DNA from: Candidatus Schekmanbacteria bacterium
GTDB taxonomy: Bacteria; CSSED10-310; JACPHN01
Reading direction: 5' to 3'
DNA length: 64,000 nt
Assembly: GCA_016188575.1 (NCBI GenBank)
Contig: JACPHN010000006.1
Span: 40,128 to 104,127 of the forward strand
Each line of letters starts with the position of its first letter. Within the stretch, counting starts at the first letter, position 1. Shown here piece after piece: positions 15,611 through 44,630 of the stretch. The translations under genes were made by a program, and so were the position numbers. The notes under the pieces are model-generated. The model was not told the DNA's origin. It made no database searches and saw only the letters and a program-made list of their open reading frames with translations.

Positions 15611-17921
15611 CGGACTTCCTGGGAAAGCTCAAGTAGACCCCGGGCTTGAACGTCGTCGGATAAACCAGTGGCTCCACGCCCGGAATGCGATATTGCAGCC
15701 GCACCCGGTGAATCTCGGGACCCGCCGCTACCGGCCACTTCAGCAACGGGCTCTCGCCCAGCGGAACGTCATCCACAAACACGTCGCACGCGGCAGAGCA
15801 ACTGACATTCAGATATCCATACTGGGGCTCGGGAACCGTCACCGGCACCGGGGTGCCCGCCCGCACCTCGATCGTCTTGCGAAAGAGGTAATACGGCCGC
15901 ACCGAAACGAGCACGACTTTGTGGACGCCGGCCTCGAGCCGCACCATGCGGCCGCCGCCGCCCACCTTTCCGTACCCCTTGTCGTCGACGGACAGCTCCA
16001 TGTCCACCGGACTGGTCACCTGGATCGCGGCGTCGGTGCTGGCCGCAAGCTCGACCGCCAGCTCCGCGCTTGCGGGCAGATCTCTCACCGCAGCCTTGTA
16101 GCCGTCAAGCTCGAGCTTGAGCTTGCCGCCGCCACACCCCGCGGGCGGCAGCATGGCAGTCAGCGGCGTCCTGCCGAGAGCGCGACCGGCAAGAGATACC
16201 GCGGCGTGCGCCGGCACGGAAGTCACACGCACCGCTCGCACCTCGGGTTCCAGCCGCAGCTCGAGGGCCTCCGGTGCCGCGGAATCCAGGGTGATGCGGC
16301 GCTGCGTGGCGACGTGACACGGAGTGGAAGCCGTGATGAGATGGTCCGAACCCGCGGCACCGCGGATCGTTATCGTTGCCGGTGCCCGCTGCGGTACGGT
16401 GCCGCCATCGACGGTGATCGCCGCTCCGGTCGGGTTCGTGGTGAGCGTCAGCTCGCGCTGCAGGATCACCGGTGCGCCGCCGCTGTCCGGCGCGGGCGTG
16501 GCTCCCGGCCTGGCCGTTGCCGCTCCCGGCAGGCTTGGCACCGCAACCACATCAAAGGTCGGCACCCCTGGCGGCGCTGTCGGCTCACCTGCCTCGCCAT
16601 CGGCGGCCCGCGGCGTCGCTGGCACGAGCCCAAGCTGGCCGTCACCCGCGCTACCGCGCAGCAGCCCGAGAATGGCCGAATCCACGCGACGAAGATCGTA
16701 CACGGCCGCGCCCAAAACCACGATCAGCGCCCCCATCAGGACCAGGAGCCACGCCGGAATCGCTCTGGCACCGCGAGGCGGCCCTGCAATGGCTGCTTCA
16801 TGCGCCGAAACACCGGTCAACGACGCCAGGCTGCCAAGCGCCGTTTCCGACGACAACGGGGTCGCCGCCGGCGGCGGCACGGCCGTCGATCCTGTCGGTT
16901 GCGCCACCGGCGCGCCGGTCGACGCTTCCTTCACCTGGTCGCCGGTGACCGTCGCTACCGGTATGCTGAGACTTTCTACCGGTCGATCTTCGGGCGCTTC
17001 GATGATCTTGTTCTTGCGCAGGTAGGCCATGAAATGCGGGATGTCGCCCGCTCCCGGCGAATCCGCGGTAGCCCGCTGAATTTCCGCCAGCTCGCGGCGA
17101 AAGTGCTCGGCCTGCTGATAGCGCTCTTCAGGGTTTTTGGCCAGAAGCTTCATGACCACTCCGTCGAGAGCATCGGGAACTTTCGTGTTGCGTCCGCGGA
17201 TCGACTCCGGCGCCTCCGACAGAATCTTGAACAGAATTTGGTAATCGCTGTCGCCGCCGAACGGCTGGATTCCCGTAAACATTTCGTAGGCGAGAATCCC
17301 GAGCGAAAACAGATCCGACCGGCCATCGAGCGGCTGGCCGCGGATCTGCTCGGGAGACAGATAGGCGATCTTTCCCTTGATGATGCCGCTCTTGGTGTTG
17401 TAGCTACGGCCCGTCGCCTTGGCGATGCCGAAGTCCATGAGCTTCACCGCGCCTTCGAAGGAAATGAGGACGTTCTTGCTCGACACGTCCCGATGCACGA
17501 GCCGCAATGGTTCGCCCTCGGGGGTCAGAGCGCGGTGCGCGTACCCCAGGCCGGAAGCGATTTCGCTGAGGATGGACAGCGACACGGGAAGCGGAAGGAC
17601 GCGGGACTGCGCTGCAAACTTCTTCATCAGCTCGTGCAGCGACGGACCGGGAATATATTCCATCGCGATGTACCACGCGCCGTCGACGCACCCGAAGTCG
17701 TAGACCTGCACGATATTCTGGTGCATGAGCTGCGCGGAAATGCGCGCCTCGGTCCGGAATTGCTCGATGAACTCGGGATCTTCGGAGTTTCCCGGGAGAA
17801 TCCGCTTGATCGCCACGAGCCGCTCGAAGCCGCCCTCGCGCGCGAGACGTGCCTTGAAAACCTCGGCCATGCCGCCGGCGCCGATTCGCGATATGAGCTC
17901 GTAGTTACCGAAGCGCACCAT
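15594..17921 (-). CDS. Membrane Ser/Thr protein kinase with PEGA repeats
   Basis: The protein has 775 residues. The N-terminal Hanks-type kinase has a glycine loop at GAGGMAEVF, Lys39 in VAIKR, HRD with Asp145, and DFG with Asp163, so all catalytic residues are present. A single transmembrane helix ([21 protein letters not shown]) lies near residue 385. The outer part carries several PEGA-like domains ([51 protein letters not shown]). It probably senses an envelope cue and phosphorylates cytoplasmic targets. The ATG at 17921 is chosen because the kinase fold begins at [11 protein letters not shown]; its ribosome-binding site is weak. Confidence 0.9.
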
Positions 17922-18189
17922 CTCTACCGCACTGAGGGGAGAAGTGCTCGCTAGTCTTGGTGATTCGCGCCAAGATTGCAAGCGGTGGCGCCCGCTGCAC
18001 CCACCGCCTGTTCTCCGCCGGCGTGACGGCGCCCCCCACCGCATCTCCCCGCAAGCGGCGGGACAGAGGGCCGGCGGAGTGGGTCATGGCCGGTGCTTGA
18101 CAGGTGACCGTCAATGGCGCTTTCCTCCACGTCTCAAGCAACGCGCGCGCCGCGCAACCGCGACCGCGCTCCACGCAAGAGGACACGCG

Positions 18190-28422: not shown

Positions 28423-28438
28423 TGGCACTTCGTTTGCA
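28423..28438 (+). promoter_or_regulatory. Sigma-54 promoter of the FG-GAP/sensor/activator operon
   Basis: TGGCAC-TTCGT-TTGCA is a perfect match to the -24/-12 consensus. The predicted start is near 28449 and the leader about 46 nt. It would make expression of the sigma-54 activator itself sigma-54-dependent. Confidence 0.8.
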
Positions 28439-28494: not shown

Positions 28495-31458
28495 ATGGCC
28501 TTCCCCACTCCGCCAACTGCGATCCCAATCGGCGGATCAAGCACGGTTGTCTCACGCCCGAGACGCCGGTTACCCGGTAGACTCCGAGTCCGCAGCCGCG
28601 CGCTCGTCGCGCTCGTCGTGGCGGCCTGCGCCACCGCGGTGGTGGCCGCGCCGGGCGGCGGCAACGCGGCAAGCCTCGCCCCCGCCATTCTGGCTCCCGA
28701 ACCGCCGGCGCCGCCACGCGTCACCACGGCACGCGCGATCCTGCTGTCTCCTTTCGCCGCGACGACGGCGTGGTCGGCCCAGGCGAGCCAGCCCGACGTG
28801 CGCCTGGGCGCTGCCGTGGCTGGCGCGGGAGACGTCAATGGGGACGGATTCGCCGACCTGCTCGTTGGTGCGCCGGGATTCACCGGCACCTTGCGGGCAC
28901 AGGGGCTGGCGCTGCTCTTCCTCGGCGGGCCGGACGGGCTCTCACGCGAACCCGCATGGAGCCTGCTGGGAGACGCGGAGCTCGCCCGTACCGGCGCCGC
29001 CGTCGCCGCCGCCGGAGACGTCAACGCCGACGGCTATGCCGACGTCATGATTGCAGCGCCCGGCTGGAACGAGGGCGCGCTGCCTCTCGGGAAAGTCAGT
29101 CTCTTCCTCGGTGGTCCGCAGGGTCTCCAGAAAACTGCGCAGTGGACCGCCTACGGGGACGAGGAGGGGGCGGGCTTCGGCACGGCCGCCGCGGGTGTAG
29201 GCGACCTGGACGGCGATGGTTACGGAGACGTGCTGGTCGCGGCACCGGGGCACGACGCCGAGAAGGTCGATGCGGGCCGCGTCTACGTCTTCTCCGGCGG
29301 GGCAGCGGGGCTGGCCGCGACGGCGTCGTCGTCGCTGGACGGTGACGCCCCGGGCGCGCAGCTCGGCGCGAGCCTCGCCGCCGCGCACGATGTCGACGGC
29401 GACGGCCGCGACGACATCGTCATCGGCGCCCCGGGGTACCCGCACGACGGCCACCTGGGGCGCGCCTACGTCTATTCCGGCGGCAGCCGCCGCCTCGGCG
29501 AGGCGCGCCTACTCGCGACCATTGCCTCCACCGAACCGCTCTCGAAGCTCGGATACGCGGTCGCCGGCCTTGGCGACGTCAACGCGGACGGCTATGCGGA
29601 CATCGCCGTAGGGGAACCCGAGTATCGTTACATCGGCCAGCTCGCGGGACGCGTTCTCCTGTATCTCGGCGCCCCGGGCGGCCTGTCCGCGACGCCCGCG
29701 TGGACCGCTCACAGTCACTCGCAGAAGCACGCCGGCTTCGGCGCCGCACTGGCTGCGGCCGGCGACGTCAACGGCGACGGCTACGCGGATCTCGTGGTCG
29801 GCGCCCGCGAGTATGACAACCGCAATACCGACGAGGGCCGCCTTTGCCTGTACCTCGGCTCCGCGGCCGGCTTCGCGACCAATCCCGAGTGGATGGCCGA
29901 CGGCGGCCGTCCCCTGGCCTATCTCGGGCATGCCATTGCCGGTGTCGGAGACACAGACGCGGACGGTCTGGACGACGTCGCCGTGGGCGCACCCGGAATG
30001 AACGCCACCAAACGCGGCGCCGGCGCGGTCTATTTGCTCCGCGGCGCCGCAACCGAGCTGTCTCATGAGCCGAGCTTCGTTCTGGACGGCCCGCCCCTGC
30101 CTCACCCGGGAGCCCCCGCCATTTCCGGCACCAGCGATCTGGACGGCGATGGCTACGCCGAAATCGCCGTCGGCAGCTCGCCCCCACCAGAGGACAGCGA
30201 GGACAGCGGCGTCGTGTACGTGTACGCGGCCGGAACCGCAGGATTCGACCCGCGGCCACGGTGGATCATCTCGGGGCCGCGGGCCGATGAGCGCTTCGGC
30301 GTCGCCGTGCATGCCGGCGCCGACCTCGACGGCGATGGTCGCGACGATCTCGCCGTGGGAGCGCCGCGGCGCGAGGGCCGCGCCAACCCAGGCCGGGTGT
30401 ACGTGTTCCCGGGATCGGCTCTGGGGCCGGGCACTGCGCCGCTGGAGATCCGCGATGACGAGAGCGCTGGTTCCTTCGGTTCGTCGCTCGCAACGGGCGA
30501 CTACAACTGCGACGGGCGCGCCGACCTGGCGGTCAGTGCGCCGGAGGATGACAGCGCCGGTGCAAAGCCGGGATCCGCCACCGTTTTTTGGGGTAGTCTG
30601 GGCGAAGAGGCGCCGGCTCGCTACTGGCGACACGTCGGCCCTGAACCCGGCGAGCACTTCGCGGCCGCGATGGCGGGGCCGGCGGATTTCAATGGTGACG
30701 GCTGCTCCGATCTCGCCGTATCCGCTCCGGCAGCCCAGGGTCAACCGGTCGGCAGCGGTCGCATCTACATTTTCGCGGGCTCCGCCGCCGGCCTGCCGGC
30801 GCGTGCCTCGCTCGTGCTCTCAGGACCTGACCGATGGGCGCGCTTCGGCGCCTTCGTCGCGGCAACCGACACCAACGGAGACGGGTTCGACGATCTCCTC
30901 GCCGTGGCTCCAGAGGCGGTTGCTGCCGGTCCGGGGCCCGGCTACGCCGCGGTCTACTTCGGGTCTCCGAGCGGTCTTGCGGGTGCGCCAGCGTGGCGCG
31001 CGCCGGACGATCTCATGCCGGCGGGTGTGGTCGCGGTGGCCGCGCTCGGCGACGCCAACGGTGATGGTACGGCAGAGCTCGTCGTGGCGGGAACCGACCA
31101 GACCGGAAACGAGACCGCGTTCGTCCTCTGGGGACGACCGCAGGGTCCAGCCGAGACCTGGCAACCGCTGGCGATTGCGAAGTGGCCCAGCGCCAGCGTC
31201 CCACTGTCATCCCATGTGAGTCTGGCGGCCGGCGACGTCAATGCAGACGGTTTCGCCGACCTCCTGGTGGCCACGAAGCCCCCCTGGACTCCTGACTCGC
31301 CTTCCCGCCTGAGCGTGTACGCTGGCAACCGCGGCGGCAAGCGGTTCGCGCCCAGCGCGCCCAGCGCCGACTGCACCTCTGCCGACGTCGCGGCGACCGC
31401 GCCTTGCCGCCGGCGGACCCGCGTGGTACAGAAACCTCGCACGAGGATTGAGGAATGA
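28495..31458 (+). CDS. Exported FG-GAP repeat protein with fourteen repeats
   Basis: The 987-residue protein starts with a long basic N-region and an export helix (ALVALVVAACATAVVAAPG). It then contains fourteen FG-GAP units, each with a calcium-binding D-x-D/N-x-D-G loop and a following AP/AVGAP strand (for example GDVNGDGFADLLVGAPG, GDLDGDGYGDVLVAAPG, ADLDGDGRDDLAVGAPR). Fourteen blades would make two seven-bladed integrin-alpha-like propellers. GGAGAG precedes the ATG by about 7 nt. It sits 26 bp before the sensor-kinase gene under a shared sigma-54 promoter, so it may be the extracellular cue-binding partner. Function is inferred from fold and position. Confidence 0.88.
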   Translation: MAFPTPPTAIPIGGSSTVVSRPRRRLPGRLRVRSRALVALVVAACATAVVAAPGGGNAASLAPAILAPEPPAPPRVTTARAILLSPFAATTAWSAQASQPDVRLGAAVAGAGDVNGDGFADLLVGAPGFTGTLRAQGLALLFLGGPDGLSREPAWSLLGDAELARTGAAVAAAGDVNADGYADVMIAAPGWNEGALPLGKVSLFLGGPQGLQKTAQWTAYGDEEGAGFGTAAAGVGDLDGDGYGDVLVAAPGHDAEKVDAGRVYVFSGGAAGLAATASSSLDGDAPGAQLGASLAAAHDVDGDGRDDIVIGAPGYPHDGHLGRAYVYSGGSRRLGEARLLATIASTEPLSKLGYAVAGLGDVNADGYADIAVGEPEYRYIGQLAGRVLLYLGAPGGLSATPAWTAHSHSQKHAGFGAALAAAGDVNGDGYADLVVGAREYDNRNTDEGRLCLYLGSAAGFATNPEWMADGGRPLAYLGHAIAGVGDTDADGLDDVAVGAPGMNATKRGAGAVYLLRGAATELSHEPSFVLDGPPLPHPGAPAISGTSDLDGDGYAEIAVGSSPPPEDSEDSGVVYVYAAGTAGFDPRPRWIISGPRADERFGVAVHAGADLDGDGRDDLAVGAPRREGRANPGRVYVFPGSALGPGTAPLEIRDDESAGSFGSSLATGDYNCDGRADLAVSAPEDDSAGAKPGSATVFWGSLGEEAPARYWRHVGPEPGEHFAAAMAGPADFNGDGCSDLAVSAPAAQGQPVGSGRIYIFAGSAAGLPARASLVLSGPDRWARFGAFVAATDTNGDGFDDLLAVAPEAVAAGPGPGYAAVYFGSPSGLAGAPAWRAPDDLMPAGVVAVAALGDANGDGTAELVVAGTDQTGNETAFVLWGRPQGPAETWQPLAIAKWPSASVPLSSHVSLAAGDVNADGFADLLVATKPPWTPDSPSRLSVYAGNRGGKRFAPSAPSADCTSADVAATAPCRRRTRVVQKPRTRIEE

Positions 31459-31484: not shown

Positions 31485-33278
31485 ATGCAGCTCGTACAGA
31501 CAATACGCCGGCGCCTCGCGGCGATGGGCCACGTCGAAAAGTTTTCCGCTACGGCGCTCGTCGTGACGCTGGCTCTGGCCGCCGTCTTCGCCACGGTGAC
31601 CGAATCGGTAGTCTATCGCATGGCCGAGCAGGCGGAAACCGAACGTACTGCGGCCATCATCCGCCATCGATACGAGCACACCTTGCGGCCGGAAATCTTT
31701 GCGCTTGGAGATCCGGTTAGCTCGGAGAGCCTGCGGGCCTCCCTGAACCGCGCCTTCATCCTCGATGACATCTTTCGGGTGAAGATTTACGCCGCGTCCG
31801 GCATGGTCACGTGGTCGGATGAGGCGCGACTGATCGGCAAGGACCTGTCCACCAACGAGCTCTTCCAGGTCGCCGTGCAGGGCCACCCCGTAAGCAAGAT
31901 CGAAGCGCCCCATCGCCACGAGCACGAGTTCGAGAAGGGCACGCACGAGAAGGTCATGGAAACCTACGTGCCAATCTTCGCTCGCGGCAAGCTCCTTGGA
32001 GTCATAGAAACCTATCGCTATCCGGAGGATTTTTTCCGCAGATCCGCCACCGCCGGCTGGATCATCTGGGCCGGGATCCTGGTCGCTGGCGCGATTCTAT
32101 ACGGAATCATGGTTGGCGTCGTGCGGCGGATCAACACCTACCAGCGCGGGCTCGAAAAGGCCTTGCGGTATTCCCGGGATTCTCTGGCGCGAGAAAAGAC
32201 CCGGCTCGAAAACATCGTCAACGCTATCGGCGCGGGATTGGTGCTCGTGGATCAGCGCGGAAACATCCTGTGGAGCAACGACATCGCGACCAGATGGTTC
32301 GGGCTGGCGGAGGATCGCGAAGGCACGTGTTATGGCCGCCTCTGGGGAGCCAGTGCCCCGTGCCCATCCTGCATCCGCGCCTGCGGCGACGCGCAGGACA
32401 AGCTCCGCTACTGCGAGCATCGCGTTGTCGATGAGAACGGCCGCGAACGCCACTACGAAGTCATCACGACGACCAATCCCGCGCTCGACCCAGCCGAGCC
32501 CATGCGCTTCCTCGAGCTGGTGCTCGACGTCACGGAGGCCAAGCAGGCGCAGAAGCGACTGCAGCTTGCGGACAAGTCGGCGCTGATCGCGCAGCTTCTC
32601 GGTGGCCTCACGGAGCAGATCAACACGCCTGTTTCCATTCTCTTGACCACCGTGACCCGGCATCTCGGAGAGCCCCTTCGCAGCCGTTACGAGAAGGACC
32701 TGCTGCACGATCTGGAGTTGATGGAGCGGCAGTGCCAGCGCATCGATTTCGCCTTGCGGAGCCTGCTCAGCTTTTCGCAGTCGGCCGCGGAAGCACGCGT
32801 GGCGGTAAGTCTGTCCGAGGTCGTGAGCAAGGCGGCGACTCTGCTATCCCCGCGCATCGCCAGGAACGCCGTCGAGCTCCAGACCAGCGCGTCGGCCCCG
32901 GCGGCCTTGGCGGAGGGAGCCCCCAACGATCTCCTCCAAGTCGTCCTCAATCTGCTGGATAATGCTCTCGATGTGACGCCATCCGGAGGCAAGATCGAGG
33001 TGGGGCTCGTCATCGAGCCCAAGCACAACGGGGCACCGGAGGAAATCGTGCTTACGGTGTCCGACACGGGCCCGGGGCTGGAACCGGAGGTTCTGCCGAA
33101 ACTCTTCCAGCCGTTTTTCACTACCAAGGGTGACCGCGCCGGCAGCGGCCTCGGCCTGGCCGTATCGCAGCGGATCATCGAGTCCATGGGCGGCTCCATT
33201 CGGGCGTTCAACAAGGACACCCTGGGCGCTTGCTTTGAGGTCCGACTTCCTGTCTTTCGCGACGCTCCGACGAACTAG
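31485..33278 (+). CDS. Membrane sensor histidine-kinase-like protein lacking the phospho-accepting histidine
   Basis: The 597-residue protein has two transmembrane helices (SATALVVTLALAAVFATVT and GWIIWAGILVAGAILYG) enclosing a Cache-like periplasmic domain of about 140 residues. A PAS domain (NAIGAGLVLVDQRGNILW) with a Cys cluster (CYGRLWGASAPCPSC) follows, then the dimerisation helices and an ATPase domain. The ATPase boxes are intact: NLLDNALDVTP, SDTGPGL, FQPFFTTK, GSGLGLAV. The H-box, however, reads GGLTEQINTP where the family has G-x-AHEINNP: Glu377 replaces the His. Autophosphorylation at the usual site is therefore impossible, and the protein may signal by conformation or ATP binding. 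The partner activator starts 11 bp downstream. Confidence 0.9.
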   Translation: MQLVQTIRRRLAAMGHVEKFSATALVVTLALAAVFATVTESVVYRMAEQAETERTAAIIRHRYEHTLRPEIFALGDPVSSESLRASLNRAFILDDIFRVKIYAASGMVTWSDEARLIGKDLSTNELFQVAVQGHPVSKIEAPHRHEHEFEKGTHEKVMETYVPIFARGKLLGVIETYRYPEDFFRRSATAGWIIWAGILVAGAILYGIMVGVVRRINTYQRGLEKALRYSRDSLAREKTRLENIVNAIGAGLVLVDQRGNILWSNDIATRWFGLAEDREGTCYGRLWGASAPCPSCIRACGDAQDKLRYCEHRVVDENGRERHYEVITTTNPALDPAEPMRFLELVLDVTEAKQAQKRLQLADKSALIAQLLGGLTEQINTPVSILLTTVTRHLGEPLRSRYEKDLLHDLELMERQCQRIDFALRSLLSFSQSAAEARVAVSLSEVVSKAATLLSPRIARNAVELQTSASAPAALAEGAPNDLLQVVLNLLDNALDVTPSGGKIEVGLVIEPKHNGAPEEIVLTVSDTGPGLEPEVLPKLFQPFFTTKGDRAGSGLGLAVSQRIIESMGGSIRAFNKDTLGACFEVRLPVFRDAPTN

Positions 33279-33289
33279 AGACACCCCTC

Positions 33290-34708
33290 GTGAAATCGAT
33301 TCTCCTCGTCGGCAATGAACCCGACATGCACGATGTCTGCGCGGCCGTGCTCCGCCAGGAGCTGACGGCCGACTTTGGCGAGCCGGACATCGTCGCCGCG
33401 GATACTGCCGCGAATGCCCGCGAGTGGCTCCTCCGCAAAGGCTTCCACCTCATCGTCATGGAGCTGCAGATGCCAGGGGTGGCCGACACGGAGCTCCTGG
33501 ATTTTGCGATTGCCCAGGCTCCAGGCGCCGCGGTAGTCGTCGTGGCCTCAATCCCCTCGCTTCAGCAGGCGGTGGCGGCGATCAAGAGAGGGGCGGCGGA
33601 TTATCTCGACAAGCCCTTCAGCGCGCAGCGACTCGCGGAGACGGCGCGCAAGGCACTCAGCAGAGCGCCGCTCGCCACTGCGCCGCCGCGACCGGCGAGC
33701 ACCCACGATCAGGCGCACCCCGCACTCGCCCGGGTCCTCGGAAACAGCGAGGAGACCCGCCGCCTTCGCGCCCTTGTCTCCAAGCTCAGAACCGTGCGGG
33801 AAAACGTCCTCATTCTGGGGGAAACGGGGGTCGGCAAGGGACTGGTCGCCGAGATCATTCACGAAACGGGGCCCACGAGCGGCGGACCTTTCATGGTATT
33901 GGATTGCGCTTCGATTCCGCCGGAGCTCATGGAATCCGAGATCTTCGGCCACGAGCGCGGCGCCTTTACCGGTGCAAACAGCCGGCACTGCGGCATCCTG
34001 GAGTCCGCCGGGCAGGGGACACTCTTTCTCGACGAGATCGGGGAGTTGCCACTGACGCTTCAGCCGAAGCTCTTGCGCGTGTTGCAGGAACGGCAGTACC
34101 GGCGCCTGGGTGGCACCGCCAAGTGCGTCTTCGAGGCGCGGCTCATTGCCGCTACCAACCGAGATCTGGCCGAGCAGATGCAAGAAAGGCGATTTCGGCA
34201 GGATCTCTACTATCGGTTGAACGTCATTCCGGTGCACGTGCCGCCGTTGCGGGAACGCAGAGCCGACGTTGAAATCCTGGCGCGGCACTTCGTCCAGGAG
34301 TTTAATCAGAATAATCCACACCACGGCCCGCGCGAATTGGGTGCGGACGCCATCGACGCCCTGTCCCGGTGCGACTGGCCGGGCAATGTGCGGCAGCTCG
34401 CAAACGTCGTTCGGCGCGTGTGCAGCCTGTCGCCCAATCGCGTTCTCAACTCCGGCGACATGCCGCCTGAGGTTCTTGTGGACCGCGGGGTATCCCCACC
34501 GCCGGCGGTTCTCGCAGACTCGGCCGCCGACTTTTTCGCGACGCGCGACCAGCACCTTCGCGATTTCGAGGAGCGATACTTCCAGCTCTTGCTCGGACAG
34601 ACCGGAGGCAACGTTGTCGGTGCGTCCAACCTATCCGGAATTCCGCGGCCGACGCTGTATCGGTATCTTCGCAAGTACGGCCTGGAGCCGGATGACTACC
34701 GTTCCTGA
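33290..34708 (+). CDS. Sigma-54-dependent NtrC-family activator with a degenerate receiver
   Basis: The 472-residue protein has receiver, AAA+ and Fis-type domains. The receiver begins ILLVGNEPD: the paired acids that bind Mg2+ are Gly8 and Asn9. The phospho-accepting Asp is Glu58 (IVMELQMPG), while the conserved Lys remains (DYLDKPF). The AAA+ domain is complete: Walker A GETGVGKG, GAFTGA at residues 224-229, Walker B TLFLDEIGELP, and an arginine-rich sensor region. The C-terminus carries NVVGASNLSGIPRPTLYRYL. It can thus open sigma-54 promoters but probably not by phosphorylation; Glu58 may mimic the phosphorylated state. Start is GTG. It ends tail to tail with the PPIase gene, overlapping 13 bp. 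Confidence 0.92.
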   Translation: MKSILLVGNEPDMHDVCAAVLRQELTADFGEPDIVAADTAANAREWLLRKGFHLIVMELQMPGVADTELLDFAIAQAPGAAVVVVASIPSLQQAVAAIKRGAADYLDKPFSAQRLAETARKALSRAPLATAPPRPASTHDQAHPALARVLGNSEETRRLRALVSKLRTVRENVLILGETGVGKGLVAEIIHETGPTSGGPFMVLDCASIPPELMESEIFGHERGAFTGANSRHCGILESAGQGTLFLDEIGELPLTLQPKLLRVLQERQYRRLGGTAKCVFEARLIAATNRDLAEQMQERRFRQDLYYRLNVIPVHVPPLRERRADVEILARHFVQEFNQNNPHHGPRELGADAIDALSRCDWPGNVRQLANVVRRVCSLSPNRVLNSGDMPPEVLVDRGVSPPPAVLADSAADFFATRDQHLRDFEERYFQLLLGQTGGNVVGASNLSGIPRPTLYRYLRKYGLEPDDYRS

Positions 34709-35739
34709 GCGCTTGCTGGCGCACTGGCAGCCGGCGCCGCCGGGACCGCGTCCGCCCTGGCGGCGGTTGCGGCCACTTCGGGGGCCGCGGAAATAATCTG
34801 CACCGGGATTCGCGCGCGGAGCTCGCCCAGCCAGCGCTCGAGCAACGCCTGGCGCCGTTTCTCTAGCACGTGATTGCGAATCGACTCCTTCACCTCGGCG
34901 AACGCATACCGCCGCTCCTCCTTGCGGTCAACCAGCTTGATGATGTGGAACCCAAACGACGTCTCGACAACGTTGCTGAGCCGGCCGATCTCGAGCTCGT
35001 CGATGGCCTTCTCGAAGGGCTCCTCGACGCTGCCGGCAGCAAAATAGCCGAGATCGCCTCCGACCCACTTCGTCCGGTCGTCGGACTCGTAGTAGGCGAC
35101 GTCGTGAAAGTCTTCGCCGGCGGTGACGCGGCCAAGGAGCTGCTCCGCGCGGCGACGCTTTTCCGCCTTTTGCTCGGCGGAATCCGTCGCCTTCAGCTCC
35201 ACCAGGATGTGGCTCGCCCGAAAGCGCTTGGGTTCGACGTACCGTTCCTGATTCTCGGTAAAAAGCGCCTCCAGCTCCTCATCCTTCACCTCGGACTTCG
35301 CGTTCACCTCGGCGTCCATCGCCTGGTGTGCGAGAAGCTCGCGGCGCATCGAATTCTCGAAGTCCGCGAGGGGCTCCTTGCCGAGAGCGTCGCGAAAAGC
35401 CTGCTCGGTATCAAACTGTTGCTTGACCTCGGCCAACGTGGCCGCAAAATCCTCGGTGGAGACAGTAAGTCCGGCACGCCGCCCGTGCTCGGCCATGAGA
35501 CTTCGGCGAATGAGGGATTGCAGCGCCTCCGCGCGGAGCTCGGTCTGGCGTTCCTGAGAGATCCCGCCGTGGTAACCCTTGGCGAAGGGGAGGAGCCGCT
35601 GGTACTCGCGCTGCACCTCGTGCTCGGAAATCTCGAAGGAGCCAACGCGAGCGACTGTCGCTGCCCGCGCCAGCGGCCATGAAGAAAACACGAAAAGCGC
35701 GGCGGTCGCCGCCAAACCGAGGCATGGAAGGGTCCTCAC
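34696..35739 (-). CDS. Periplasmic peptidyl-prolyl isomerase (SurA/PpiC type)
   Basis: The 347-residue protein has a signal peptide (LGLAATAALFVFSSWPLARA). The N-terminal chaperone region holds REYQRLLPFAK and LIRRSLMAEHGRRAG. One parvulin domain spans about residues 170-275 (FRASHILVELK, GGDLGYFAAGSVEEPFEKAI, FGFHIIKLVDRKEE). The C-terminal Ala/Pro tail is low complexity. It should help fold or deliver exported proteins such as the beta-barrel and cytochromes encoded next door. The gene starts 3 bp after the stop of the small membrane-protein gene, so the two form an operon. Confidence 0.9.
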   Translation of the reverse strand: MRTLPCLGLAATAALFVFSSWPLARAATVARVGSFEISEHEVQREYQRLLPFAKGYHGGISQERQTELRAEALQSLIRRSLMAEHGRRAGLTVSTEDFAATLAEVKQQFDTEQAFRDALGKEPLADFENSMRRELLAHQAMDAEVNAKSEVKDEELEALFTENQERYVEPKRFRASHILVELKATDSAEQKAEKRRRAEQLLGRVTAGEDFHDVAYYESDDRTKWVGGDLGYFAAGSVEEPFEKAIDELEIGRLSNVVETSFGFHIIKLVDRKEERRYAFAEVKESIRNHVLEKRRQALLERWLGELRARIPVQIISAAPEVAATAARADAVPAAPAASAPASAQER

Positions 35740-36300: not shown

Positions 36301-36666
36301 CTTGCGATCTCCGTGGAGCCGCGAGCCAACACGGCGCGCGTGATAAGTTCGTGTCCCAGCGCTCACATCGAAAACCGGGCCGGCATTGCAACGCGAACGT
36401 ACGCCGACCTCTTGAAGGAGCGCTACGAGCGGGTAGCTCCGCCGGCCCAGGTTGGAGTCAATCCGCAAGAAAGCATGCTTGCAATTGACGGGCCAACGTT
36501 CGAGCAGCCGTGAGCGGGACGGATCACCGGCTCGCCCGGGAGCGCGCGATTCGCTTCCCGCTGCACCTGTCTCACCGCTGAAACAGCTCCTGTATCACGA
36601 GTGATTCAGGGGCGCTCCGGGCGAAACGGGGGTTTCTCAATCCGCTGCCGGTTCGACGTCGACGCA

Positions 36667-36826: not shown

Positions 36827-36842
36827 TGGCACGTTCCCTGCA
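36827..36842 (+). promoter_or_regulatory. Sigma-54 promoter of the multihaem cytochrome operon
   Basis: TGGCAC-GTTCC-CTGCA keeps the invariant GG and GC with correct spacing and differs from the consensus at one base of the -12 box. The predicted start is near 36853, 38 nt before the first ATG. Confidence 0.7.
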
Positions 36843-36890: not shown

Positions 36891-38105
36891 ATGCACCGCC
36901 AAGAATCCATAAAAGAACGCTCCCGGGTGACCGATCTCGCGTTCGGCGCTACCGCCGTCCTCCTCGCGCTCACCGCGATGGGCTGCCCGAGCACCCAACA
37001 AGCTCCCCCGAAAGCGGCCATCGACCTCGTGTGGCCACTGCCACCCGAGCAGCCGCGCATCCGCTACGTCGGCTCCCTGGCGTCGGGCGAGGATGTCGGC
37101 AAGGACAAGGGCGCCGCCGCCAAGCTCTCCGAGAAGCTGCTCGGTGTTCAGTCTTCGGACATGGCGGTGCTGGCCAAGCCGTACGCTGTCGCTTCGGATC
37201 GCGGTGAGCGGGTCTACGTCGCCGACTCCGCGCTCGGCACCGTGATCGTGTTTGACTACGACAAGAAGGACGTGCGAATCCTCGGCCAGGAGGGCGCCGG
37301 ACAGCTCGGCAAGGCCATGGGTGTGTGCGTGGATTCGCAAGGCAACGTCTACGTCTCGGACTCGTCGTCACGCCGCGTGGTCGTCTTCGATCGGGACGGC
37401 AAGTATCTCCGCGCCCTGGGAGGGACCGAGATTCTCTATCGGCCGATCGGCGTGGCGCTGGACGAAGGACGTAAACTCCTCTACGTCGCCGATAGTGGCG
37501 CGCACCAAGTTGCCGTCCTCGAGCTCGAGACCGGCGAGCTCGTGCGCCGCATCGGCCGCGACGAGAACCCCGCGCAGGTGCCGACGGGCGCCGCCGACTA
37601 CGCCTGGAACCGCGGCGGCAACGACGGCGAGTTTCGCTTCCCGACCTCCCTTGCCGTGGACGGCCAGGGACGCGTGCACGTCATGGACACGATGAATTTC
37701 CGCGTCCAGATCTTCTCACCCGAGGGCAAGTTTCTGCGCTCGATCGGCCAGAATGGCAAGAGCCTCGGCACCTTCGCACGCCCCAAGGGCGTCGCCGTGG
37801 ACTCGGCGGGAAACGTCTATGCGGTGGACGCCGCGTTCAACAATGTGCAGATCTTCAGCGCCGATGGACAGCTCCTCATGTTCTTCGGTTCGATCGGGAC
37901 AAAGAAAGGGGAGTTCTGGCTCCCGGCGGGAATTTGCATAGACAAAACAGACAAGATCTTCGTTGTCGATCAGTACAATAAGAGAATACAGATTTTTCAG
38001 CCACTGAATCAGGAGGTGGACAACGCAAACAAGATGGGTTCCGTAGTAAGCAGCACAAACCAATCACCAGCTTACGTTGACACTGGGAACAAGAACAGGA
38101 GCTAG
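36891..38105 (+). CDS. NHL-repeat lipoprotein 1 of the cytochrome cluster
   Basis: The 404-residue protein has a lipobox (LLALTAMGC) at about residue 31 and then an NHL six-bladed propeller (GVCVDSQGNVYVSDSSSRRV, GVALDEGRKLLYVADSG, GVAVDSAGNVYAVDAAFN, ICIDKTDKIFVVDQYNKRI). GGAG precedes the ATG at 36891. The segment IDLVWPLPPEQPRIRYVGSL before the propeller also occurs, in related form, in the second NHL protein of the cluster. As a lipid-anchored propeller it likely scaffolds cytochromes at the outer membrane. It is first in the sigma-54-driven operon. Confidence 0.9.
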   Translation: MHRQESIKERSRVTDLAFGATAVLLALTAMGCPSTQQAPPKAAIDLVWPLPPEQPRIRYVGSLASGEDVGKDKGAAAKLSEKLLGVQSSDMAVLAKPYAVASDRGERVYVADSALGTVIVFDYDKKDVRILGQEGAGQLGKAMGVCVDSQGNVYVSDSSSRRVVVFDRDGKYLRALGGTEILYRPIGVALDEGRKLLYVADSGAHQVAVLELETGELVRRIGRDENPAQVPTGAADYAWNRGGNDGEFRFPTSLAVDGQGRVHVMDTMNFRVQIFSPEGKFLRSIGQNGKSLGTFARPKGVAVDSAGNVYAVDAAFNNVQIFSADGQLLMFFGSIGTKKGEFWLPAGICIDKTDKIFVVDQYNKRIQIFQPLNQEVDNANKMGSVVSSTNQSPAYVDTGNKNRS

Positions 38106-38107: not shown

Positions 38108-38803
38108 ATGAAGTCCAAGCTTTCCGTCGTATGTCTTTCAGCCGTTGTCGCCCTCGCAACCGTTAGCATCGCCCGCGCCGAGGATGACGTTACGAGCACG
38201 AAACACAACATGAGAAACCTGTCAAGTCTCGACGCTACTGCATACGGCAGCGCTACTGACCATGGCGAGGTATGTGTCTATTGCCATACCCCACACAACA
38301 AAAACACGAGCGTGGAAGCGCCTCTGTGGAACCGCCAGGTCAATACGAGTGGGTACACCGTATACTCGAGCACGACCATCGACATGACCATCGACAGCCA
38401 GCCCACTGGAGTATCCCTGGCCTGCCTGTCCTGCCACGACGGAACGATTGGACTCGACGTGATTGTAAACCAACCGGGCGACACCTACAGCGCGCCGAGC
38501 GGCACGACCATGCGCAGCGGCAACAAGGCCGGTGGAACCCCACCAGTCGGTGACGCCACCTTCCGGCCGATGCTGACCCAGGACCTGAGCGACGATCATC
38601 CGGTCTCGGTGACCTACGACCCCGCTATTGACGTGAAGTTCAACTCGGTCGCGAGCATTACCTCCGCCGGCCTGCGCCTCTTCAGCGGCAAGGTTCAGTG
38701 CGCGACCTGCCACAACCCCCACGAGTCCGACACCGCCAAGAAGCCGTTCCTGCGGATCGCCAACGGCAACAGCGCCTTGTGCAAGACCTGCCACATCAAA
38801 TAG
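38108..38803 (+). CDS. Exported tetrahaem c-type cytochrome
   Basis: The 231-residue protein has a signal peptide (LSVVCLSAVVALATVSIARA) and four CXXCH motifs: CVYCH, CLSCH, CATCH, CKTCH. CHTPHN and CHNPHE contexts match the doubled-CXXCH family. An Asp-His segment (LSDDHPVSV) between motifs 2 and 3 could supply distal ligands. It shares this layout with the N-terminal part of the undecahaem protein at 42732. It starts 2 bp after the NHL gene stop. A periplasmic or surface electron carrier is likely. Confidence 0.92.
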   Translation: MKSKLSVVCLSAVVALATVSIARAEDDVTSTKHNMRNLSSLDATAYGSATDHGEVCVYCHTPHNKNTSVEAPLWNRQVNTSGYTVYSSTTIDMTIDSQPTGVSLACLSCHDGTIGLDVIVNQPGDTYSAPSGTTMRSGNKAGGTPPVGDATFRPMLTQDLSDDHPVSVTYDPAIDVKFNSVASITSAGLRLFSGKVQCATCHNPHESDTAKKPFLRIANGNSALCKTCHIK

Positions 38804-38853: not shown

Positions 38854-39765
38854 ATGATGCGAAACCGCGAACAGAAGGAGAGGACATGGATCTTGCCCGC
38901 GCTGTTGGCGGTTTTGCTGTGCGGAGCGTGTAATCGCAAGACGCTGTCGATCTTTTTCGACGTGCCGCCTCCGCCGCCCACGCCCACGGCAACACCCGCG
39001 CCGCCGGAAACGGCCGCGGGTGGCGGCGCGCCGGGGATCGGCGGCGCTGCCTGGGCGCCGACGCCGACGCCCACCCCGCCCGCGATCGAGAAAACACTCG
39101 CGTGGAGCGAAGCGCGCCCGCAGCTCCCGCTCGATGCGCTGGGCGAAGTCGCCTGGGATACGGCCCTGCGCGAGGGAGTCATTCGACCGCGCAAGGATGT
39201 TGGCAAACCCGCCAGGGACGACGACTTTCTGTTTGGGTTCGATTTCTTTTTCCCGGGCCCAGACCCCTTGTTCGACGCCTTTTTCCCGCATTCGGTCCAC
39301 ACCCGGTGGCTCGCGTGCTCGAGTTGCCATCCGGCGATTTTCCCGGTACGCGGCACGCGATTTTCGATGGCCGACGTCGCCGCGGGTGAATACTGCGGGC
39401 GATGCCACGGAAAAGTGGCCTTTCCGCTGAGCTCGGGGTGCAGCAAGTGCCACACGAAAGTGCCTGCATTCAAGAGCCATACGCCGCGCAGCAAGGGGGT
39501 GTACGGCGACATCGAGTTCACGGCTCACGACCAGACGGCACCCGTTCCACCGGCATACTTTCCACATTGGCTACACCGGATTCGCTTTCGCTGTAGTGCC
39601 TGCCACCCCGACACCTTTGAAATGCGCAAGGGTGCCAATCCGATCAAGATGACCGAGATCCAAAAGGGGCGCTACTGCGGCAAGTGCCACAACGGATCGG
39701 TGGCCTTCGCGGTGGCCTTCGACACGTGCTACCGCTGTCACAAGCCCGCCCAGGAACGGGAGTAG
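38854..39765 (+). CDS. Hexahaem cytochrome lipoprotein, fused type A + type B trihaem modules
   Basis: The 303-residue protein has a lipobox (LLAVLLCGAC), then a Pro/Thr linker (PPPPPTPTATPAPP). Six CXXCH motifs fall in two cytochrome c7-like modules. Module A is HTRWLACSSCHPAIF, CGRCHGKVAFP, CSKCH. Module B is FPHWLHRIRFRCSACH, CGKCHNGSVAF, CYRCH. The same modules appear as separate genes downstream. The lipid anchor puts it at a membrane face, probably plugging or loading the beta-barrel encoded next, whose gene starts 8 bp later. Confidence 0.92.
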   Translation: MMRNREQKERTWILPALLAVLLCGACNRKTLSIFFDVPPPPPTPTATPAPPETAAGGGAPGIGGAAWAPTPTPTPPAIEKTLAWSEARPQLPLDALGEVAWDTALREGVIRPRKDVGKPARDDDFLFGFDFFFPGPDPLFDAFFPHSVHTRWLACSSCHPAIFPVRGTRFSMADVAAGEYCGRCHGKVAFPLSSGCSKCHTKVPAFKSHTPRSKGVYGDIEFTAHDQTAPVPPAYFPHWLHRIRFRCSACHPDTFEMRKGANPIKMTEIQKGRYCGKCHNGSVAFAVAFDTCYRCHKPAQERE

Positions 39766-39773
39766 GTGTCCTC

Positions 39774-41738
39774 TTGCGCCAGGGTTACTCGAGGAATCTC
39801 GGAAGAGCTCGCTCCCCAGGGTTGTTGCCGCTATTGGTGACCGCGCTGCTGGCGGCGGGCCGCCTCGTCCCGGGACCGGCACCCGCACAGGCGGCGATTT
39901 TCGCGCTTGGTCCCTGGTCGGGAGAGGTGCTGCTCGGGGTCGACGCGCTGCAGCGGCGGGGCGTGAGAGCCGGAGACACCCGCTCGCTCGGCTACCGCGG
40001 GCAGCTTTCGCTCGGCAAGAGCGTCTCCTTTCTGGATGCGGGAATCCTGTCGTGCAATGCGGGCGTGAGCGCGAAGCACGCGTCACGGTCCACCACTGTC
40101 GCCGGCGACGGCATCGACTTCGACAACGACTTTCTCGGTTACAACCTCTGGCTTGGCATCCTGCAGGCAAAACGCGTTTCGCTCGAGGCCACCGCAAATC
40201 GCGCGGCGACCGTCGGCGAGGAGTCTCTGGGGAGCCGGCGGCTCAGCGAAACACAGGACTGGAGCACCGCTCTCAGCTTTCGCTTTCGGCCGCTGCGGGC
40301 GACTCTGAGATACTCCAATGCCGCTCTGGACGAGACGATATCCGAGCGGACGCTCAATGGCGATCGCCGCCGCCGCGAGCGCGTGCGGCGCCTGGCCGTC
40401 GACGCCAGGAGCACCAAGCTCGGCCTGTTGGCGGAGCGCACGTGGTTCACTCAGCCAGATACCTCAGAGGAGTATCTCGTCGACACCCTTGCGGCCTCCC
40501 ACGCCTTCAACTGGGGAAAGGGCAGCACCTTGCGCACGGCGATCGACGGGCTCGATCGCGGGGGTGTCAATCCCGTGCGCTCCCTGCGCTTCGGTGAATC
40601 CGCGCGGATACAGCACACGGAGTCACTGGCGAGCGTCTTGTCCATACGCCACACCACCGAGCGGCGCCAACAGTCGCTTGAGAGCCTGGGTGCTCAGCTC
40701 AGCATCCAACACAAGCTGTACAGCAACCTGACGTCCGCGGTCAGTCTGTCCGGCGCGCGCACGCGCTACGCGGCGAGTCGCGACGACACGCTCGGAACCG
40801 CGGTTTCGCTCTCCTATCGGAAGGGCTTGCCGCATGATGGTGCGATTCAGATCGGGCTCGGCACGGGGATGCAAGCATCGCGAAGCACCATGGCTGACGA
40901 CGAAATTCGGGCGACGAGCGAAAATCATCGCATCGACGACAGCCGGCTGCTCGGTCTGCGCCAGCCAAACGCGCTCACCGGCACGATCGTCGTCACCAAC
41001 GAGCGGGAACAGGAAATCTACGAGCTGGGCGTGGATTATACAATCCTGGAAGACGGTCCGCCGACCCAACTGTTGGTGCTCGAGGGAGGGCGAATAAAAG
41101 TCGGCCAGATTGTTGTCGTCTCGTATCAGTTCCGCGCTCCCGGAAAGAACCGCGATCGGTCGGAGAGTTACGAGCTCAATGCGGCAGTCGATTTTCAATG
41201 GATCAACCTGAGTCAGTCGGTATCGCTGTCACGCGAGGGGTCGCCGGCAAGCGCCGCCAGCGGGGAACGCGCTTCCACTCTGAACAGTGTTACGGGTGCG
41301 GATCTGAGCTGGGGCGAGGGCAACACCCGCGCGTCGGCGGGCGTGAGCTACCGCCACCTGCTCTCCTTTGGCGCGCGCACCACCTCCTACACGGTGCGCG
41401 GTGCACTCAGCTTTCAACCATCGGCGGCTTTCAGTCTCAATCTCTCCGCAAAGCAGGTGTACGCGAGCACAACGTCCCGAGCCTACCATCTGGCGGACCT
41501 CGACCTCGGTGCGAGCTGGCGGATCAGCCGGGCGCTGTGGGCGCAGGGGCAAGCGCTGGCCAGTTACCGGGCCGAATCCAATGGAGTCCGGGAGCAATTC
41601 GCCCGCGCCACGGTAACACTCGGTTTCGGACTGGGGATGATCGATCTGGAACTGGAGCACTCGTTGTCGATGGCGAGCGGCTTTGCCGGCAACAGCATTG
41701 AAAACCGCCTGACCACGCAAATCAGGAGGAAGCTCTGA
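39774..41738 (+). CDS. Predicted outer-membrane beta-barrel of the cytochrome cluster
   Basis: About 654 residues. A signal peptide (GLLPLLVTALLAAGRLVPG) leads into long runs of alternating polar and hydrophobic residues ending in aromatic or Arg positions (SLEATANRAAT, ASVLSIRHTTERRQQSLES, RASAGVSYRHLLSFGARTT, RATVTLGFGLGMIDLELEHSL), the signature of a large barrel. It has no haem motif. The start is uncertain: TTG at 39774 is preferred because it follows GGAGTAGG and the previous stop, and gives a normal signal peptide. By analogy with MtrB/OmbB it would be the pore through which haem proteins pass electrons. Confidence 0.8.
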   Translation: MRQGYSRNLGRARSPGLLPLLVTALLAAGRLVPGPAPAQAAIFALGPWSGEVLLGVDALQRRGVRAGDTRSLGYRGQLSLGKSVSFLDAGILSCNAGVSAKHASRSTTVAGDGIDFDNDFLGYNLWLGILQAKRVSLEATANRAATVGEESLGSRRLSETQDWSTALSFRFRPLRATLRYSNAALDETISERTLNGDRRRRERVRRLAVDARSTKLGLLAERTWFTQPDTSEEYLVDTLAASHAFNWGKGSTLRTAIDGLDRGGVNPVRSLRFGESARIQHTESLASVLSIRHTTERRQQSLESLGAQLSIQHKLYSNLTSAVSLSGARTRYAASRDDTLGTAVSLSYRKGLPHDGAIQIGLGTGMQASRSTMADDEIRATSENHRIDDSRLLGLRQPNALTGTIVVTNEREQEIYELGVDYTILEDGPPTQLLVLEGGRIKVGQIVVVSYQFRAPGKNRDRSESYELNAAVDFQWINLSQSVSLSREGSPASAASGERASTLNSVTGADLSWGEGNTRASAGVSYRHLLSFGARTTSYTVRGALSFQPSAAFSLNLSAKQVYASTTSRAYHLADLDLGASWRISRALWAQGQALASYRAESNGVREQFARATVTLGFGLGMIDLELEHSLSMASGFAGNSIENRLTTQIRRKL

Positions 41739-42742
41739 TGCCCAGGCCCGCGTGGATGGCGCTCGCATTGCTGCTCGGGACGTGGGTCGCCTGCGCCACA
41801 GTCCCGACTGTGCCGGTTTCGCCGGCGCTTGCCCCGGCATGGCCAGCGCCGCCCGAGAAAGCGCGCATCGCCTATGTCAGCACCATCCGCGGGCCCCGCG
41901 ATCTCGGACTGAGAAAGCCTTTCTTTCAGCGGCTGCGCGAGCTCATTGTAGGATCTCTTCCCGGCGCTCTCGCCCAACCCGTAGCGGTCGCGGTTGCCGA
42001 CGACCGCATGGCCATCGCCGATGCCGGCTGCGGATGTGTTCATGTCTTCGATCTGGCAAAGAAGACCTCCTACCTGGTGCGCAACGGCGGGGGTGCGGAG
42101 CTGCTATCGCCGGTAGGAGTGGCGCTCGGCTCTCGCGGTCTGTGGATCGCGGATTCGGCGCGGCGGGCCGTCTTTCTGATCGACCCGCACGGCAAGACCC
42201 TGCAGACCATCCCGGAGCTCGAACGGCCGACCGGTCTCGCCTGGGACGCTGCGGGGTCGCGGCTGTTCATTGCCGAAACCCTGGCGCACCGCGTCTGCGC
42301 CTTTACAGAACAAGGGGGCAGGCTGCTGTGCTTCGGCGCGCGCGGGCGAGAGCCGGGCGACTTCAACTACCCTACCCACCTGACGTTCGCCGAGGGCCCC
42401 GGTCTGCTTCTCGTCACCGATGCGATGAACTTCAGAGTCCAGGCGTTCCGGGCCAGCGGGGAGCTGGCCTTCGCCCTTGGGAAAGCCGGCAACGGCTCCG
42501 GTGACTTCTCCCATCCGAAAGGCGTGGCGGTCGATCCGGATGGCAACATCTACGTGGTCGACGCGCTCTTTGACCGCGTCCAGATTTTCGATCATTCCGG
42601 GCGGCTGCTGCTCGGGCTCGGCGGTGCCGGGGCGGGGCCCGGCCAGTTCTGGCTGCCCTCGGGAATCGCCTTTCACGGCAACCGTTTCTTTGTCGCCGAC
42701 ACCCACAACGGACGAGTGCAGGTGTTCAGATATGAACCGTAA
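41738..42742 (+). CDS. NHL-repeat lipoprotein 2 of the cytochrome cluster
   Basis: The 334-residue protein has a lipobox (LLLGTWVAC) and a propeller of NHL type (GVALGSRGLWIADSARR, GVAVDPDGNIYVVDALFDRV, GIAFHGNRFFVADTHNGRV). PPEKARIAYVSTI before the propeller parallels NHL protein 1, so the two are paralogues. It overlaps the barrel gene (TGATG) and the next cytochrome gene (11 bp), the tightest coupling in the operon. This suggests fixed stoichiometry of barrel, propeller and undecahaem cytochrome. Confidence 0.9.
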   Translation: MPRPAWMALALLLGTWVACATVPTVPVSPALAPAWPAPPEKARIAYVSTIRGPRDLGLRKPFFQRLRELIVGSLPGALAQPVAVAVADDRMAIADAGCGCVHVFDLAKKTSYLVRNGGGAELLSPVGVALGSRGLWIADSARRAVFLIDPHGKTLQTIPELERPTGLAWDAAGSRLFIAETLAHRVCAFTEQGGRLLCFGARGREPGDFNYPTHLTFAEGPGLLLVTDAMNFRVQAFRASGELAFALGKAGNGSGDFSHPKGVAVDPDGNIYVVDALFDRVQIFDHSGRLLLGLGGAGAGPGQFWLPSGIAFHGNRFFVADTHNGRVQVFRYEP

Positions 42743-44630
42743 TGCTGCCCTGGCCTCGGCTCTCATGGCGCTATGCATCGCCGTGGTTCCCGCGGGTTCG
42801 CGCACCTTCGGGGCGCAAAATGTGGAAAACACGGTGCACAACCTGTCTGCCACCGGGACCGGCACCTTCACGGTGCCCGCGGTCGGCGAGATTTGCGTCT
42901 TTTGCCATACCCCCCACAACGCGACCCCCGCAACGCCCCTGTGGAACCGTTATGAGGGGGGTCAAACCTACGATCCGTACCAGAGCACGACACTGCAGGC
43001 CAGCCCCGGCCAGCCCACGGGCAAATCCCGCCTGTGCCTCTCCTGTCATGACGGGACAGTCGCACTGTCCGCCATCCGCAACCAACCGGGAGAAACCTAC
43101 GCCGACTTCGGCTCGCTGTTCCTCTCAGGAAGAGCGCTCCTAGGCACCTACTTACGCGATGACCACCCCGTCTCCTTTACCTTCGATGCCAGCCTACGCG
43201 CCGCAGATGGGGAGCTCGCGGACCCTGCATCCATCGACCTTCCTCTGGAAAGCGGCCAGGTCCAGTGCACGAGCTGCCACGACCCACACGAGGCCGACAT
43301 CAGGCCGTTCCTGCGCAAGTCGTCCATGAGCGGGGAGCTGTGCGTGACGTGCCACGACCGCGGAGGGACGAGCTGGAGCTGGACCGCCTGCTCCCACGCC
43401 ACCTCGAGCGCGACGTGGAATGGCAGCGGAACCGATCCGTGGGGCGAGCGGAAGGCGGAGTGGAAAGCGACGACGGTGGCCACCAACGCCTGCTTCAACT
43501 GCCACACACCGCACACCGGCGGCGGCTCTAGCCGCCTCCAGAAGAAAGTCGAGGAGCAGACCTGCTTCCTCTGTCATACCGGCACGGTGGCATCCAAGAA
43601 CATTCAGGCAGAATTCTCGAAGAGCTACCGCCATCCCGTTACGATCACTCCAAACGCCAGCCACGACGCCATGCTCAGCGAAAATCCCACGTCCATGTCC
43701 TTGCACGCGGAATGTATGGATTGCCATAACCCGCACGCTGCGAAATCAGATCCGTACATGATCAGTTTCAATCCGTCAAACCCGTCAAACACAAATCATT
43801 CCATTGCACCAGACGCCAATGGGAGAATAAAGGGTGTCGGTGGGATTGACATAAGCGGAAGTGTAATCTCCGAGATTTCCAGGCAGTACGAGCTTTGTTT
43901 GAAGTGCCATGGTGTTCCTGGAAGTAGCTCTTGCGGCACGCAAAGGTGCCCTACACCGCGCTCGTATCAAATGACGCGGCTTGACGGAGTGTACAATATC
44001 CGAGAGAAAGTAGACTTCGGTGATGCGTTGTTGTATTCCTATCATCCTCTCGCAGCAAATAATCCTTCTAACAATGATGAAGTGCCGAGTCTGAAAACGG
44101 GAATACAACTCGACAAGATCACGAGCATGGTATATTGCACCGATTGCCACAATAACAATGCCGGTCCAGCGGCGGGGAGCACCGGTCCTGCCGGGCCTCA
44201 TGGCTCTACCCGAGAAGGCCTGCTCGCGTTGCGATACAACTTCAATCCCAATCCCGGATCATATCAATCGTCGGACGCCGAGATTTGCTACAAATGCCAC
44301 AGCGAAGACAAATTGGTGAACCAGGAGGCATCAGGGTTTCTTCATGATCGACACGTAAAAAACAGAGAAAAAATGTGCGTCAATTGCCACGACCCGCACG
44401 GCTCTTATGCGGCCCCGCACCTTATCAACTTTCTCACAAACGCCTGGTACGGTGGAACTACATACTCTATTACTGGAGCAGGAAGCTATTCACAACCAAC
44501 GTTCATAGACTACGGAAAGTACCGAGGAAAATGCTTCTTGAGATGTCACGGAGAAACCCACAACCCAAGATGTTACACAGAAACAGATTCAGGTAAAGAT
44601 GCGAGCGAATGCGCCTCGCTGTTGCCGTAA
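42732..44630 (+). CDS. Large multihaem cytochrome: eleven CXXCH plus one CX3CH
   Basis: The 632-residue protein has a signal peptide (LASALMALCIAVVPAGSRTFG). Eleven CXXCH sites are seen: CVFCH, CLSCH, CTSCH, CVTCH, CFNCH, CFLCH, CMDCH, CLKCH, CTDCH, CYKCH, CVNCH. Near the end GKCFLRCHGETH gives a CX3CH spacing, an unusual possible twelfth haem. Several sites read CHxPH (doubled-CXXCH family). The 3' half (from about 43750) is clearly poorer in G+C than its surroundings. It has no lipobox. Its size and haem number make it the likely terminal extracellular conductor of the cluster. Confidence 0.92.
   Translation: MNRNAALASALMALCIAVVPAGSRTFGAQNVENTVHNLSATGTGTFTVPAVGEICVFCHTPHNATPATPLWNRYEGGQTYDPYQSTTLQASPGQPTGKSRLCLSCHDGTVALSAIRNQPGETYADFGSLFLSGRALLGTYLRDDHPVSFTFDASLRAADGELADPASIDLPLESGQVQCTSCHDPHEADIRPFLRKSSMSGELCVTCHDRGGTSWSWTACSHATSSATWNGSGTDPWGERKAEWKATTVATNACFNCHTPHTGGGSSRLQKKVEEQTCFLCHTGTVASKNIQAEFSKSYRHPVTITPNASHDAMLSENPTSMSLHAECMDCHNPHAAKSDPYMISFNPSNPSNTNHSIAPDANGRIKGVGGIDISGSVISEISRQYELCLKCHGVPGSSSCGTQRCPTPRSYQMTRLDGVYNIREKVDFGDALLYSYHPLAANNPSNNDEVPSLKTGIQLDKITSMVYCTDCHNNNAGPAAGSTGPAGPHGSTREGLLALRYNFNPNPGSYQSSDAEICYKCHSEDKLVNQEASGFLHDRHVKNREKMCVNCHDPHGSYAAPHLINFLTNAWYGGTTYSITGAGSYSQPTFIDYGKYRGKCFLRCHGETHNPRCYTETDSGKDASECASLLP

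Follow-up and report, generated by a model that had tools for sequence, protein, structure and literature searches.

A histidine kinase-like sensor and the sigma-54 activator encoded directly downstream of it have both lost the residues of His-Asp phosphotransfer, while the ATPase parts of the two proteins are intact. The two genes lie in the 64,000-nucleotide stretch of Candidatus Schekmanbacteria DNA analysed here, hereafter the window, and all features discussed are located in Table 1. With neither an H-box His in the one protein nor a receiver Asp in the other, standard phosphotransfer is excluded by established chemistry, as the initial annotation had claimed from the residue losses. The losses appear restricted to phosphotransfer residues, which chance or decay would not readily produce, and the pattern suits a changed mechanism better than decay. 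We put at somewhat short of an even chance a phosphorylation-independent pair resembling NifL-NifA, in which the kinase-like sensor gates the activator by contact.

Table 1. Coordinates of the kinase/activator operon and of neighbouring features in the window.
Feature	Position	Strand	Basis
Sigma-54 (-24/-12) promoter-like site TGGCACTTCGTTTGCA, 0 mismatches, before the FG-GAP/kinase/activator operon	28423..28438	+	
FG-GAP (integrin-like beta-propeller) protein, first gene of the kinase/activator operon	28495..31458	+	ORF, Pfam
Pseudo-histidine kinase, 597 aa	31485..33278	+	ORF translation, Pfam, alignment
Kinase parts: two membrane helices; periplasmic sensor; Cys-containing PAS; degenerate DHp; intact HATPase_c	sensor, residues ~45-187; PAS, ~240-353; HATPase_c, 479-590		
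Degenerate H-box GGLTEQINTP, residues 373-382	32601..32630	+	ORF reading, alignment
HATPase_c (ATP-binding) domain of the kinase, conserved columns all kept	32919..33254	+	Pfam, alignment
NtrC-type sigma-54 activator with pseudo-receiver, 472 aa	33290..34708	+	ORF translation, Pfam
Pseudo-receiver domain	33299..33643	+	Pfam, alignment
Receiver residues Gly8-Asn9; Glu58; Ala86; Lys108	33311-33316; 33461-33463; 33545-33547; 33611-33613	+	ORF reading
Sigma54_activat AAA+ domain with Walker A/B and GAFTGA	33737..34234	+	Pfam, motif reading
Fis-type helix-turn-helix (HTH_8)	34556..34678	+	Pfam
PpiC-type peptidyl-prolyl isomerase, convergent with the activator	34696..35739	-	ORF, Pfam
Weaker sigma-54-like site, 1 mismatch, heading the minus-strand gene set that ends with PpiC	36480..36495	-	
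Sigma-54 promoter-like site TGGCACGTTCCCTGCA, 1 mismatch, before the beta-propeller/cytochrome operon	36827..36842	+	
NHL beta-propeller lipoprotein, likely start ATG 36891 (mechanical ORF from 36765)	36891..38105	+	Pfam
Multihaem c-type cytochrome (doubled CXXCH)	38108..38803	+	Pfam
Multihaem c-type cytochrome (cytochrome c7 type)	38854..39765	+	Pfam
Candidate outer-membrane beta-barrel	39684..41738	+	inferred from sequence, no Pfam match
Second NHL beta-propeller lipoprotein	41738..42742	+	
Large multihaem cytochrome ORF with MtrC/MtrF-like domain; true start downstream of ORF start	42477..44630	+	

In the kinase, Glu377 (codon GAG, 32613-32615) stands in a column that is 99% His among the aligned kinases (n = 96), and the substitution already read off by the initial annotation is thus confirmed from both the open reading frame and the alignment. 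Kinases inspected individually have His there, apart from the exceptional cases described below. The H-box has changed further, with Gln378 replacing the catalytic Glu and Thr381 replacing Asn. Across the whole dimerisation/His (DHp) domain only 1 of 5 columns that are at least 85% conserved is retained, and the Pfam model HisKA finds no match in the window kinase, while canonical homologues exceed its cut-off. By the same threshold, all 20 conserved columns of the ATP domain are kept, in line with the ATP-binding boxes having been described as intact. Lacking the phospho-acceptor His and a HisKA match, the protein would class on its sequence as a pseudo-histidine kinase. Two other histidines that might be considered as phosphorylation sites, His393 and His408, both lie outside the H-box position. 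In its sensory parts, the periplasmic domain carries a His cluster (APHRHEHEFEKGTHEK, window 31908-31950) and the PAS domain five Cys, including CPSCIRAC; metal, haem or redox sensing by these residues is possible.

The initial description of the activator's receiver gave Gly8-Asn9 in place of the acidic pair and Glu58 in place of the phospho-accepting Asp, and reading frame and alignment agree on both. Moreover, the switch Thr is replaced by Ala86 and a conserved Gly by Asp66, so that D8, D9, D58, T86 and G66 are lost among the 16 columns that are at least 85% conserved; Lys108 is kept. The domain is still recognised as a receiver (PF00072, 44.7 bits against a cut-off of 30.2), and, having lost DD, D and T and retained K, it falls under the definition of a pseudo-receiver. 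In the sigma-54 ATPase (AAA+) domain, 59 of 67 conserved columns (at least 85%) are retained. Walker A (GETGVGKG), Walker B (LFLDEIGELP), GAFTGA and the Arg fingers are all present and, with the Fis-type helix-turn-helix, they identify the protein as a sigma-54 activator (bacterial enhancer-binding protein). That Walker A/B and GAFTGA are intact therefore stands, with the nuance that Gly184, directly following the Walker-A Lys, occupies a position that is 97% Glu. Median identity to the comparison set is the lowest of 66 for the receiver (29% versus 39%), and it is also the lowest for the AAA+ domain, with a smaller gap (43% versus 48%). Set against a canonical two-component system, the pair lacks the H-box His, the acidic pair and the Asp, and has the intact ATP domain. 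Retention of the ATPase parts implies a continuing role for ATP, bound by the kinase and hydrolysed by the activator. Sequencing error was considered as a source of the substitutions and rejected, since both frames are open with normal coding signal and the differences affect several codons independently.

The kinase gene follows the FG-GAP gene after 26 bp and precedes the activator gene by 11 bp, and the kinase and activator genes both have good coding signal. The promoter-like site heading this operon precedes the FG-GAP gene by 72 bp, and the one heading the beta-propeller/cytochrome operon precedes the start of the NHL lipoprotein by 64 bp. In the window as a whole, 8 sigma-54-like sites with at most one mismatch were found against 1.7 expected, two of which head the two operons on the right strand; the joint probability of 2e-6 for these two is optimistic, because the windows used for it were picked after the hits were known. 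The genome contains rpoN, and the sites before the activator's own operon and the cytochrome operon fit a working activator. A search for an upstream activator site common to the two operon heads found none, and the genome holds 91 matches to the sigma-54 activator domain, some of them weak, so the assignment of target genes is insecure. Elsewhere in the window, another perfect sigma-54 promoter-like site (TGGCACGCGACTTGCT, 15022-15037, minus strand) lies 72 bp upstream of a minus-strand ORF (14333-14950), and two large Ser/Thr protein kinases are encoded at 15594-18044 and 54103-57708, one with a PEGA domain and one with AAA_16 and TPR repeats. A search of Rfam gave no match in the window.

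Propeller, cytochromes and PPIase form the core of electron-transfer operons in other bacteria (PMC5539420), and the cluster in the window likewise combines multihaem cytochromes with NHL propellers and a PPIase, but its genes are ordered differently and its cytochromes differ in size. Neither histidine kinase nor response regulator occurs as a term in that paper. Kinases matching the sensor or the PAS part of the window kinase adjoin multihaem cytochromes in other lineages (loci L123, L198, L203 and L206). At L206 (8659-14937), the neighbour of such a sensor-matching kinase is a 2093-residue open frame with 49 CXXCH motifs. At another multihaem cytochrome locus (L122, genome G236, 5605-7017), an in-frame stop codon between 6417 and 6421 divides a sigma-54 activator in two.

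Both proteins sit on long branches, the activator having the longest of 66 tips and the kinase a branch longer than 90 of 97. The nearest relative of the activator in the sample is a paralogue from the same genome (G000:C165, locus L143; support 0.976), which has a canonical receiver and a canonical kinase alongside, and placement of the window kinase in its own tree is insecure (support 0.33). Every adjacent pair read in the same genome is canonical, and the best full-length homologues in other genomes are canonical too, keeping His and Asp. Among these comparisons, a full-length co-linear kinase homologue from another lineage (L124, genome G194; 26% identity over 594 aligned columns) reads GLTHEINNP, and the same H-box is found in an in-phylum kinase (L129) with a canonical activator and adjoining multihaem cytochromes. 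As own-genome pairs and best homologues are canonical, the degenerate state is derived, and it is so far confined to a single genome in a phylum that has been sparsely sampled. Searches of 7 other genomes of the phylum, 386 relatives, 4 genomes of the phylum of G194 and 393 relatives of G177, and a peptide-pattern scan of the species collection, returned homologues that carry His and no orthologous pair sharing the double loss; a plasmid search returned distant kinases only. Selection on the pair is thus argued from one genome.

A kinase of the same kind is nevertheless retained in a related locus. In L205 (genome G830), three genes stand in a row, encoding a canonical sensor kinase from the family of the window kinase, a second membrane kinase and then a canonical sigma-54 activator; the second kinase (8699-9997 of G830:C191) reads WIAEKVNNP, with Glu for His, and its ATP-domain motifs are present. 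By sequence, the ATP domain of this Glu-bearing kinase is intact and the adjoining activator is canonical. The same three-gene order occurs in L124, where the H-box of the second kinase is AHSINNP. A receiver-kinase protein at L128 (849-2036 of G380:C16, minus strand) has the H-box GLAEELRNP, again with Glu for His, and adjoins a canonical receiver-kinase gene.

HisKA domains without the His make up 0.9% and receivers without the Asp 2.0% (PMC12632262), so that a double loss would be expected in ∼0.02% of pairs (∼1 in 5,000) if both losses were independent; at this frequency such pairs are expected somewhere across many genomes. A strict DNA pattern for the Glu H-box gave 3 matches in 386 genomes, namely the window kinase, one other real kinase (that of L128) and one non-kinase, and this count is a lower bound, since the strict pattern misses cases such as L205. 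The pattern gave 0 matches in 195 further genomes of the phylum of G035, and the search in the phylum of G031 took in 3 genomes. The His version of the pattern gave 275 matches in 60 genomes.

Among known systems, NifL-NifA offers the closest working model: NifL is histidine kinase-like without phosphotransferase activity, and its DHp and GHKL domains bind the AAA+ domain of NifA (PMC12998174), which blocks ring formation (PMC12998174; PMC3466315). The window pair resembles NifL-NifA (complex PDB 9qq6) in joining a PAS/H/ATP sensor without phosphotransfer to a sigma-54 activator, and judged by sequence and gene order a non-transferring kinase-like gene here adjoins a sigma-54 activator gene. 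In contrast, NifA has a GAF domain where the window activator has a pseudo-receiver, NifL is soluble with a FAD-PAS whereas the window kinase spans the membrane, and the NifL equivalog model TIGR02938 (NCBIfam) scores the window kinase at 72 bits, far under its cut-off of 242. The pair is therefore no member of NifL-NifA; by analogy it may work like NifL-NifA without belonging to it. AtoS/AtoC and NtrB/NtrC share the domain plan and give the best family scores, but the window pair lacks phosphotransfer residues on either side. In the pseudo-histidine kinases DivL and a natural ChrS variant, the phospho-acceptor His or the kinase function is likewise lost and the fold kept. To our knowledge these proteins act on canonical regulators or on other kinases, unlike the window kinase, whose cognate regulator is degenerate too. 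FleQ, an atypical sigma-54 activator that responds to c-di-GMP and FleN (PMC12632262), also combines an intact AAA+ part with a receiver that lacks phosphorylation chemistry; unlike FleQ, the window activator has a kinase-like gene directly upstream in its operon.

In the contact model, a former two-component system would have abandoned His-Asp phosphotransfer. The membrane sensor, keeping its periplasmic and Cys-PAS sensing domains and its ATP domain, would act as a conformational gate, and its dimeric DHp/ATP domains would touch the activator to restrain or release it, in the manner of NifL and NifA. The pseudo-receiver would serve as a docking and dimerisation surface, and Glu58, opposite Lys108, may tilt it to the active shape. 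Once freed, the AAA+ domain would make its ring and open RNA polymerase-sigma54 at promoters serving the activator's own operon and the neighbouring cytochrome/beta-propeller operon, which is of the extracellular electron transfer type. Binding, direction of control, target genes and signal are what we infer for this pair. By analogy, Glu58 could favour the active state, which would make the kinase an anti-activator. The model draws on losses largely confined to phosphotransfer on both sides with ATP-domain and AAA+ columns kept despite the long branches, on the close spacing and good coding signal of the two genes, on the sigma-54-like sites heading the two operons in a genome that has rpoN, and on the L205 kinase, which shows that His-to-Glu kinases are retained elsewhere. 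Moreover, both proteins match partners in 9qq6, a complex without phosphotransfer (kinase residues 235-589 against the histidine kinase-like chain, E 7e-16; activator against NifA, E 7e-60), though these matches are ordinary family-level ones. Due to the receiver in place of the GAF domain of NifA, the contact surface may differ. Single-sequence AlphaFold models of the two proteins are of low confidence (pLDDT 36.5 and 38.8). More tentatively, and with well under an even chance, the two may form a phosphate-free two-component system whose pseudo-kinase and pseudo-receiver evolved together, make ATP-state-dependent contact and control extracellular electron transfer genes.

Glu58 might instead mimic Asp-phosphate and lock the activator on, its level being set by sigma-54 autoregulation and the kinase being a leftover or serving another partner. 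D54E is activating in the NtrC-like regulator NmpR (PMC6211767), the Lys that would face Glu58 is kept, a perfect sigma-54-like site precedes the operon, and a constitutive pseudo-receiver controlled through its level is an accepted model (PMC12632262). However, complete conservation of the kinase ATP-domain columns is unexpected for a leftover at such divergence, and with the acidic pair and the switch Thr gone Glu58 is unlikely to work by the standard route; we regard a locked-on activator as unlikely. Control of the pseudo-receiver by a ligand, by some other protein or through mixed oligomers formed with a second activator, with the kinase having a different partner, is harder still to credit. 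Known pseudo-receivers employ ligands or protein partners (PMC12632262) and both kinases and sigma-54 activators are numerous in the genome, but the two genes are closely spaced in one operon, no other two-component gene was recognised among the window ORFs scanned, and a kinase without the H-box His should phosphorylate no partner by the usual route.

Early decay, with a redundant system drifting and caught ahead of stop codons, would agree with the long branches of both proteins, with the lack of orthologues showing the state conserved and with the canonical paralogue pair in the same genome. We nevertheless consider early decay very improbable: the losses hit phosphotransfer residues and spare those of ATP binding, Walker motifs, GAFTGA and Arg fingers, and both frames are open with normal third-position GC. 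The preference for selection over decay voiced in the initial annotation is thus supported, as both partners lose the phosphotransfer parts and keep the ATPase parts.

Pseudo-kinases and pseudo-receivers are each known, and the novelty here is a cognate pair degenerate on both sides; a limited literature search found no description of such a pair with a receiver-type sigma-54 activator. The on/off switching of bacterial pseudo-receivers has been described as unknown (PMC12632262). A pair without the chemistry on both sides and with both ATPases kept is a clean system in this respect, as any signalling that remains must be free of His-Asp phosphate. If the pair is NifL-NifA-like, contact control of sigma-54 activators would no longer be limited to nitrogen fixation and would take in activators of the receiver type as well as electron-transfer genes.
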